DNA of 26,444 nucleotides, from the IMG/VR virus record IMGVR_UViG_3300009027_000030, positions 1 through 26,444 of that record, one strand, 5' to 3'. Shown one piece after another: positions 5,405 to 6,745 of this stretch; the first letter of the stretch is position 1, and every line of letters starts with the position of its first letter. Both the position numbers and the translations under genes were made by a program. Below the pieces are notes generated by a model. That model was not told the DNA's origin and searched no databases. It saw only the letters and a list, made by a program, of their open reading frames with translations. The DNA is from a virus.

Positions 5405-5412
5405 GGTTTAGT

Positions 5413-5456
5413 CCCCCTATACTTATATATTAACACGGAAACAATAGGTTTGTCAA
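5413..5456 (-). promoter_or_regulatory. Leftward late promoter, extended sigma70-like
   Basis: Read on the minus strand: TTGACA (5456-5451), 18 bases, TAATAT (5432-5427), immediately followed by ATAAGTATAGG. The same TAATATATAAGTAT block with a TTGACA or TTTACA box 17 bases upstream occurs at 8583-8622 and 13654-13692 on the plus strand, each ahead of a gene start. It sits directly before the first leftward gene and probably starts the late transcript. Confidence 0.75.
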
Positions 5457-5522
5457 CACTAAAACGACATAAAGTGTAAAATTAATTTACTTTACAACAG
5501 ATGTTTTTTATGATACCCTATA

Positions 5523-5600
5523 TTACTTTAAGTAATTATTACTACAAGTACTTGTGTTATAAGTATATTATAATACTTTAAACACTATTACTTAAAGTAA
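5523..5600. repeat. Paired 13-bp palindromes around a promoter-like core
   Basis: TTACTTTAAGTAA at 5523-5535 and TTACTTAAAGTAA at 5588-5600 are 13-base palindromes with identical 6-base arms and a single central base. Between them lies GTGTTATAAGTATA (5554-5567), then AAGTAT-ATTATA-ATACTT, another dyad, overlapping a TATAAT at 5569-5574. An equivalent arrangement recurs at 8282-8353. The layout looks like operators bracketing a promoter; the binding protein is unknown. Confidence 0.6.
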
Positions 5601-5790
5601 GGATACTACAAGTGTACACCGCACCCCTGTATGTAAAATACCTCTGAGAGCCACGGAGAGGACCGTACAGTGCAGGTTCTGTTGTTACAAGTACCTACCC
5701 CCTCTGCAGGGTCTAATGTTTTTCTGAGATAATTTTATGTCGTAATGTACAATACAGAGGAACCCCCTAGACCCCCGCCTCACCCCTGCG

Positions 5791-5875
5791 TGTGATCACA
5801 AAAAAGTACCCCCCGGCAATCTGTGATCACAAATAATACGTCAAGAATGCTGACCTATCTGTAAACGTGATCACA
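5791..5875. repeat. Three TGTGATCACA palindromic sites
   Basis: TGTGATCACA occurs exactly at 5791-5800 and 5822-5831, and as CGTGATCACA at 5866-5875; each is followed by AAA. Centre-to-centre spacings are 31 and 44 bases. The third copy lies where a -35 box would be for the TATAAT at 5893-5898. Likely binding sites for a regulator or initiator. The half-site resembles the TGTGA/TCACA arms of CRP sites but without the usual 6-base spacer, so CRP itself is not claimed. Confidence 0.6.
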
Positions 5876-5994
5876 AATAGGATCGATACTGTTATAATGT
5901 AACACTTTGTAAGGGAAATACAATAAAGGTCAACAAACCTTACCTATCTGATTGATCTGATTGGATTAATACGTCAATAGTTCTTACCTATCTG
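5834..5994 (+). repeat. 28-bp direct repeat (two copies) plus ACCTATCTG motifs
   Basis: TAATACGTCAA-N8-ACCTATCTG occurs at 5834-5861 and 5967-5994, both exactly 28 bases, with 24 of 28 positions identical, 133 bases apart. A third ACCTATCTG lies alone at 5942-5950, after a small AAGGT/ACCTT dyad (5926-5941). Each 28-base copy is followed by a TATAAT box (5893-5898, 6017-6022). Could be iterons of an origin or activator sites for early promoters. Confidence 0.6.
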
Positions 5995-6136
5995 AACCGA
6001 TTCAATGGGTATACATTATAATATACAATTGGACCTATCCTTTAGTATAGACTGGATATACTTTGTAGTCGTTTACAACTGTGATTTAATTTGCAATACT
6101 GAATATATCGAAACAACAACACGAAAGAAAGAAACA

Positions 6137-6262
6137 ATGACAACTGATCAAGAACTTGAATATCTTTTAAAGACAATAAAAGAGAATAACAAAAAGATTG
6201 CAGAAAAGCACAAACAAATAAGAAAACAACTTGAAGAACTAGAAAAACAAATTAACTATTGA
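6137..6262 (+). CDS. Small coiled-coil protein, unknown function
   Basis: 41 residues if the ATG at 6137 is used: MTTDQELEYLL followed by an almost uninterrupted charged helix (KTIKENNKKIAEKHKQI, ending LEELEKQINY) with heptad-like L/I spacing. The frame is open back to an ATG at 6005. The upstream part (hydrophobic and C/Y/I-rich, inside the repeat-bearing control region) looks non-coding, so the internal start is preferred. A possible TTTACA-N17-AATACT promoter lies at 6072-6100. First gene of the rightward early region. The coiled coil suggests oligomerisation or partner binding. No family recognised. Confidence 0.55.
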   Translation: MTTDQELEYLLKTIKENNKKIAEKHKQIRKQLEELEKQINY

Positions 6263-6328: not shown

Positions 6329-6745
6329 ATGAAATACGTTATATTCTCAATAGACAATGTAACCGACACACACACACAAGCTAAATTTTTGCGTCATATA
6401 GATACCGCAAGAGCCATGCAAAAAATGAAAGGTAACATGGTACACTGTATCGGATCGTATAAAGGTGAAATTGAGCCGTCCTATATGATGTTATGGGATG
6501 ATTTCAAAGAACACGTTATAGGCAAGGGGTTCGTTGAAAATCAGGAAAGTATACTTAGGGTATCAGAGTGCAATAAACAATATGCTGAACTGGTTTATTC
6601 CGATCAGACAAGGGAAAGTGTAGGCTCTTTAAAAGATGTTTCTAAAGATGAAGCAATGAAACATGATGCTTGGACATACCGACCAGATTTAAACATGTAT
6701 TGGATCACTGTTAAAGGAAATCCAGACACAGTACACAATGGATAA
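6329..6745 (+). CDS. Early protein of unknown function
   Basis: 138 residues, starting at an ATG preceded by AGAGGAAAG. MKYVIFSIDNVTD opens with a beta strand; then come FLRHIDTARAMQKMKG, VHCIGSYKGEIEPSYMMLWDDF and NQESILRVSECNKQYAELVY; the end is TYRPDLNMYWITVKGNPDTV. It looks like a compact alpha/beta soluble protein. The conserved-looking GSYKGEIEPSYM segment may form a functional loop, but I recognise no family. It stands alone, with hairpins in both flanking gaps, so it may be transcribed or processed as its own unit. Position in the early region suggests a host take-over or regulatory role; that is inference only. Confidence 0.8.
   Translation: MKYVIFSIDNVTDTHTQAKFLRHIDTARAMQKMKGNMVHCIGSYKGEIEPSYMMLWDDFKEHVIGKGFVENQESILRVSECNKQYAELVYSDQTRESVGSLKDVSKDEAMKHDAWTYRPDLNMYWITVKGNPDTVHNG

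Follow-up and report, generated by a model that had tools for sequence, protein, structure and literature searches.

What reads the cluster of repeats in the gene-free gap of this viral DNA, and does the cluster act as an origin of replication or as an early switch? An earlier note on this DNA had named both functions as candidates and had considered either a host factor or an unassigned early phage protein as the reader. The stretch analysed, referred to here as the window, comprised the full 26,444 nt of virus record IMGVR_UViG_3300009027_000030. Sequence comparison assigns the window to a Cobavirinae phage (Zobellviridae), of which it is a fragment, near Roseobacter phage CRP-4, the closest named phage, with 77% nucleotide identity across the matching part; judging from CRP-4, its hosts are probably Roseobacter. 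The left operon runs leftward and carries structural genes, with a predicted leftward promoter (5427..5456, minus strand; TTGACA-18-TAATAT) in a block kept in relatives. The right operon runs rightward and encodes a SAM lyase, a DUF7178 protein, ThyX, a primase/helicase, DNA polymerase, a Cas4-type nuclease, MazG and ribonucleotide reductase. Its first ORF (6137..6262, plus strand; 41 codons) starts at an in-frame ATG within a 6005-6262 ORF, and is followed by an early gene of the S-adenosylmethionine lyase family (6329..6745, plus strand; Pfam PF23780, E 3e-9), which probably has an anti-restriction role, as in T3. The gap without genes between the two operons extends over 5405-6136, and not over 210 bases as first described. 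Rfam and tRNA scans of the window gave zero matches.

The two 28-base repeats reported previously were found at 5834-5861 and 5967-5994 (24/28 identical, 86%), and the third ACCTATCTG lies in a weaker copy at 5923-5950 (71%). Alignment of the gap among related viral contigs resolved the 28-mer as an imperfect dyad of 23 bp, ATASGTMA-N7-TKACSTAT. The sequence is present in repeated copies, as the earlier note had it, and each copy is an imperfect palindrome. The MarR/PetP-type dyad A (ATACGTCAAGAATGCTGACCTAT, 5836..5858), dyad B (AAAGGTCAACAAACCTTACCTAT, 5925..5947) and dyad C (ATACGTCAATAGTTCTTACCTAT, 5969..5991) form the cores of the first, the weak third and the second 28-mer, respectively. 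The three shorter palindromes were likewise recovered: TGTGATCACA at 5791..5800 and, 31 bp further on, at 5822..5831, and CGTGATCACA, which has one mismatch, at 5866..5875, 44 bp from the second; TGATCACA occurs within all three. We treat these as putative GntR-type operators 1, 2 and 3, for reasons given below. When 2000 first-order random gaps were generated, even one dyad of equal quality arose in only 17 and one TGTGATCACA in 3, while the real gap has three dyads and two exact copies of TGTGATCACA plus one with a single mismatch. The remainder of the 26-kb window contained a single further dyad-like match (2 mismatches) and no further exact TGTGATCACA.

Conservation in related phages, which the earlier note had suggested examining, was borne out: relatives whose gap is full-length keep the repeats at the same position, and dyads B and C are spaced by 44 bp in every relative that has both. 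The repeats are genuine, conserved and not due to chance. In the sister clade, dyad A is reverse-complemented (ATAGGTCAGTATTCTTGACGTAT), and thus the dyad has no functional direction, as for the operator of a dimer. The operator set differs among close relatives; TGTGATCACA is missing from CRP-4, L005-L007 and L025, which do have dyads. The window's operators were absent from the gaps of ICBM2, CRP-5, CRP-6, SIO1, P12053L and T5S1, so the arrangement is not common to the whole subfamily. The CRP-6 gap (L031, 44332-44927) has another repeat system, in which a TTGCAAnAATGTCAC-like direct repeat occurs six times or more. Among the matches listed, further viral contigs had dyad clusters in divergent gaps, often with LexA boxes. 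Up to five dyads or several LexA boxes were found close together in gene-free viral stretches of L222 (104-304), L135 (1996-2107), L116 (3314-3667) and L260 (6795-7179).

The position of the gap in the packaged genome was indicated by phages with mapped ends. ICBM2, which belongs to the genus of CRP-4, has a PacBio-determined direct terminal repeat of 159 bp whose edges align with window positions 5744 and 5919; for the 172-bp repeat of ICBM1, the left edge coincides with that of ICBM2 and the right edge falls near 5914. By this homology, the gap appears to be a collapsed genome junction that holds one copy of a direct terminal repeat at 5744..5919, and the two operons should therefore sit at opposite ends of the packaged genome. 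Since assemblies collapse the repeat, contig ends are no test of it. The three GntR-type sites, dyad A and a predicted promoter (P1) fall within the inferred repeat, and dyads B and C and a second promoter (P2) follow it. Upstream of the repeat, at 5519-5610, there is a conserved array of TACTTTAAGTA- and TACTACAAGTA-like palindromes beside a conserved rightward promoter-like block.

This location would suit a packaging or maturation signal in which terminase, or an enzyme that resolves concatemers, recognises palindromes of the terminal repeat: several of the sites lie in the inferred repeat, and its GC-rich left edge and right-edge palindrome are conserved in the subfamily. Dyads B and C and P2 are nevertheless outside the repeat, the sites vary among genera that have common repeat edges, and the same sites occur at host metabolic genes, all of which make this explanation very improbable.

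The two TATAAT motifs noted after the 28-base copies were confirmed at 5893-5898 and 6017-6022. The first belongs to predicted promoter P1 (5870..5898, plus strand; ATCACA-17-TATAAT, with TG before the -10 and 10/12 matches), whose -35 falls inside GntR-type site 3. P1 is present in the window, L003 and L015 and absent from the sister clade. Its -10 is overlapped by the palindrome GTTATAATGTAAC (5891..5903) at the right edge of the terminal repeat; similar palindromes occur in CRP-4, SIO1 and ICBM1, and this element may have a role in DNA processing instead of, or besides, serving as the P1 -10. The second motif (6017..6022, plus strand) is the perfect -10 of predicted promoter P2, which has no recognisable -35. 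A distance of 25 nt separates it from the upstream dyad C in the majority of relatives; one has 24 nt, two have 37 nt and a few show a change. No RNA polymerase gene is present in CRP-4 or CRP-5 (PMC6918029); thus, the host polymerase must start the early genes.

Both types of repeat were found in front of host genes. Twenty Planktomarina-group genomes had 3-20 copies of TGTGATCACA each, compared with an estimated two or so per genome expected from base composition alone; the reversed-pattern control gave 0-2 copies, but this control includes CTAG, a tetranucleotide that many bacteria have only rarely. Paired copies precede sucC and a glutathione-transferase-like gene, and a single copy precedes sdhC. 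In L514, TGTGATCACA lies 8 bp before a gene at 826-1470 for a GntR/FCD regulator (GntR helix-turn-helix PF00392 and FCD PF07729) beside lpd. An exact TGTGATCACA was present before that gntR gene in 13/30 Rhodobacteraceae (12 from a fixed-offset scan, and L522 found separately), and a one-mismatch form in 3 more. The identification of TGTGATCACA as the putative operator of this host regulator, to which operators 1 and 2 of the window match exactly, is well supported by these comparisons. A literature search for the TGTGATCACA string returned no relevant report.

The dyad was traced in a collection of species genomes with a strict form, ATAGGTMA-N7-TKACCTAT; many of the loci are related, so the counts are not independent. 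Among the strict-dyad matches listed, 45 of 80 loci were alphaproteobacterial by title, most dyads were intergenic, and the neighbouring genes encoded indolepyruvate:ferredoxin oxidoreductase, GltD, class I aminotransferases, IlvE and a few other families, with MarR genes also adjoining. One of these, a MarR gene of Ghiorsea, had exactly one homologue per genome in eight alphaproteobacterial genomes; in Planktomarina, a gene for an OmpR-type response regulator comes after the homologue, which is itself divergent from ilvE, a layout that we take to be the petP-petR arrangement named in Rhodobacter capsulatus. Seven MarR proteins encoded beside strict dyads were 33-44% identical to alphaproteobacterial PetP, with the helix-turn-helix conserved; a host PetP is encoded at L443:1231-1758. 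Upstream of petP itself, a GTCA-N7-TGAC core was found in 29/30 Rhodobacteraceae at a near-constant distance, as a degenerate form of the dyad that matches the strict dyad at just 11-12/16 positions. The Planktomarina petP site (GTCAATAATACTGAC) differs from site A of the viral contig L005 (GTCAAGAATACTGAC) at 1/15 positions, and the core of window dyad A differs from it at few positions.

The dyad core is an inverted repeat, GTCA-N7-TGAC, with half-sites about one helical turn apart, as for a MarR operator. It fits a LysR box (T-N11-A) as well, and the host indolepyruvate oxidoreductase site has a divergent LysR gene next to it; on the petP and MarR comparisons above, a MarR reader is tentatively favoured over a LysR one. 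AsnC/Lrp, prompted as a candidate by the amino-acid targets, was rejected, as a convincing dyad was present in 0/30 AsnC/Lrp loci.

These matches bear on the proposal that the cluster is a replication origin with iteron-like repeats. The region is AT-rich and without genes, and the cumulative GC-skew minimum, which the earlier note had proposed to compute, does fall in it. However, the skew turns again at about 19.5 kb, where genes converge, and thus follows gene orientation. The sites are palindromic and orientation-reversible, unlike iterons, and they match host operators. No phage initiator gene was recognised in the genes scanned, and no origin feature was found. An origin here is extremely improbable.

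Arrays of TGTGATCACA were not confined to cobaviruses. The HMO-2011-type roseophages CRP-1, -2, -13, -345 and -603, isolated on the same RCA strains and belonging to a different group from cobaviruses, had TGTGATCACA in the gap with neighbour spacings of 31, 32, 44, 46 and 74-75; the dyad was not found in the ends examined of HMO-2011-type isolates. Among viral contigs, at least 227 distinct TGTGATCACA pairs were found at no fewer than 160 loci, many of them related, so that these counts are not independent. At these loci, the spacings clustered at 20-23, 30-34, 39-46, 52-54, 62-65 and 72-77, with peaks among the matches listed at 21, 31, 42-44, 53, 64 and 74. A Rayleigh test at 10.5 bp gave p about 2e-39 for the listed pairs, with relatedness ignored. 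After dereplication, phasing was significant in each group alone: HMO-2011-like (51 pairs, p 2e-7), cobavirus-like (34, p 2e-7) and CRP-6-like (12, p 5e-4). Of at least 191 loci with TGTGATCACA pairs, 171/191 resembled these three phage groups, and 181/191 of those listed were intergenic. The dyad accompanied TGTGATCACA pairs in only 4/191 listed contigs, so beyond close relatives the two do not form a fixed pair.

The control palindrome TGTCATGACA gave 58 listed loci, of which 56 were unlike these phages and about half were intergenic. Its pair spacing had one main peak at 24-26 and no series, and the Rayleigh p of 3e-5 reflects that peak. The 58 viral contigs concerned are L758-L815, in the main unrelated to these phages, and most of their pairs have a spacing of 24-26 bp. 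In viral contigs, palindromes in pairs are by themselves nothing unusual, and the weight of the TGTGATCACA arrays lies in their phasing and in which phages carry them.

The same geometry bears on whether the sites are decoys, titrating host GntR and MarR proteins as phage DNA multiplies and so freeing host energy and amino-acid genes. The sites do match host operators, and several copies are inside the terminal repeat, which would double some sites per genome. Simple titration, on the other hand, would need neither a fixed geometry at early promoters nor helical phase, and the sites per genome are few; we consider this explanation unlikely. A phage-encoded early protein with the specificity of a host regulator, working as a repressor-operator switch, would fit the divergent layout with its repeated operators and the several small early ORFs without a family. 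Against this, no DNA-binding domain was recognised among the early genes scanned, there are two different operator types, for each of which a conserved host gene has a matching upstream site of its own, and unrelated phages with different genes share the sites. A phage reader in place of the host regulators is thus quite improbable, although small phage proteins without a family could bind the cluster too. As to a temperate-type repressor beside the operators, the early ORFs scanned had no helix-turn-helix domain; small ORFs without a family remain.

A putative third host operator was found in related phages. The gaps of L005-L007, L009-L014 and L016-L022 contain between one and three copies of GAAC-N7-GAAC, which is the LexA box of alphaproteobacteria, and the same box occurs near host lexA genes. 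In sister phages, the boxes lie about 45-90 bp into the terminal repeat, at the place of the window's TGTGATCACA site 1 or 2; CRP-9 has two LexA boxes in place of TGTGATCACA. Most sister-clade phages have such boxes, while the window's gap has zero GTTC-N7-GTTC LexA boxes. LexA boxes occurred within 300 bp of TGTGATCACA arrays at 42/191 listed loci, compared with 2/224 control regions. AGTTTAA-nn-TTAAACT palindromes were also observed in L010, L013, L018 and L019 and at the ends of CRP-9 (L560) and CRP-13 (L556). They are common to cobavirus terminal repeats and unrelated HMO-2011-type gaps (15/191 array loci and 1/224 controls), and are possibly a further host operator.

The identity of the sites is well supported by comparison, which also showed their presence at host genes, and their conservation, spacing and helical phasing. 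We put at roughly 0.6 the probability that this cluster at the phage genome junction serves as an early control hub under host regulation. The suggestion of an early switch would then be largely right, and the matches to operators of two host regulators support a host protein as its reader. In the mechanism proposed, the three TGTGATCACA-type sites would be operators of the host GntR/FCD regulator, whose gene is beside lpd and whose sites precede sucC and sdhC, and the three 23-bp dyads would be operators of a host PetP-like MarR regulator, with dyads B and C and P2 at the presumed left, entering end of the genome. GntR bound to site 3 would occlude the P1 -35, stabilised by the phased upstream sites, and PetP on dyad C would activate the -35-less P2; we infer these directions of regulation, repression of P1 and activation of P2. 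Early transcription would thereby depend on the carbon and amino-acid status of the host; in those sister phages that carry LexA boxes, it would also be tied to DNA damage. The wider proposition seems to us evenly balanced: that unrelated lytic phages of marine roseobacters have repeatedly assembled host operators (carbon/TCA GntR, amino-acid MarR/PetP, SOS LexA) into a sensor of physiology with several inputs, placed in the main control region on one DNA face, with cooperative or looped binding, by which a virulent phage would restrain or express its early genes depending on the state of the host.

Parts of this arrangement resemble known systems. The left end of T7 has a terminal repeat and then early promoters read by the host polymerase; the position of the promoters relative to the repeat and the T7-like replication genes are shared. 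Unlike T7, CRP-4 and CRP-5 have no phage RNA polymerase gene, and here the putative operators are those of host regulators and P2 lacks a -35. The closest precedent, in our analysis, is that of CtrA-binding sites in the promoters and terminal repeats of alphaproteobacterial phages, discussed as "lytic deferment" (PMC9437464). There, too, sites for a host transcription factor are massed in control regions, including terminal repeats, of unrelated alphaproteobacterial phages; however, CtrA is a cell-cycle regulator, the phages are pili- or flagellum-tropic and binding was shown by experiment, whereas the present case involves GntR- and MarR-type metabolic regulators plus LexA, phased arrays and small roseophages, and is drawn from sequence comparison. 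Cyanophage genes under host PhoBR (PMC10976474) similarly place a marine lytic phage with a host nutrient-sensing regulator, but that is two-component phosphate control of single genes and not an array at the genome junction. GIL01 is controlled by LexA (PMC4551915, PMC6182141) and, like the sister phages, has host LexA boxes in its control region; it is temperate, whereas neither an integrase nor a repressor was found in the scanned parts of phages of the window's type, and LexA boxes are just one of several operator types here. Literature on PetP/PetR, roseophage host-factor sites and roseophage promoters did not report these operators, and no report of GntR- or PetP-type operators in phages was found in a search mostly outside subscription journals.

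If the proposed reading is true, a defined 250-bp region ties phage early transcription to named host regulators, which would make the timing of infection by virulent marine phages in slow-growing hosts directly testable. The comparison also supplies predicted target sites for two little-studied roseobacter regulators, and the phased TGTGATCACA array offers a sequence marker for other phages that may sense the same host state. The virus, in that case, may read the physiological state of its host before switching on its early genes.
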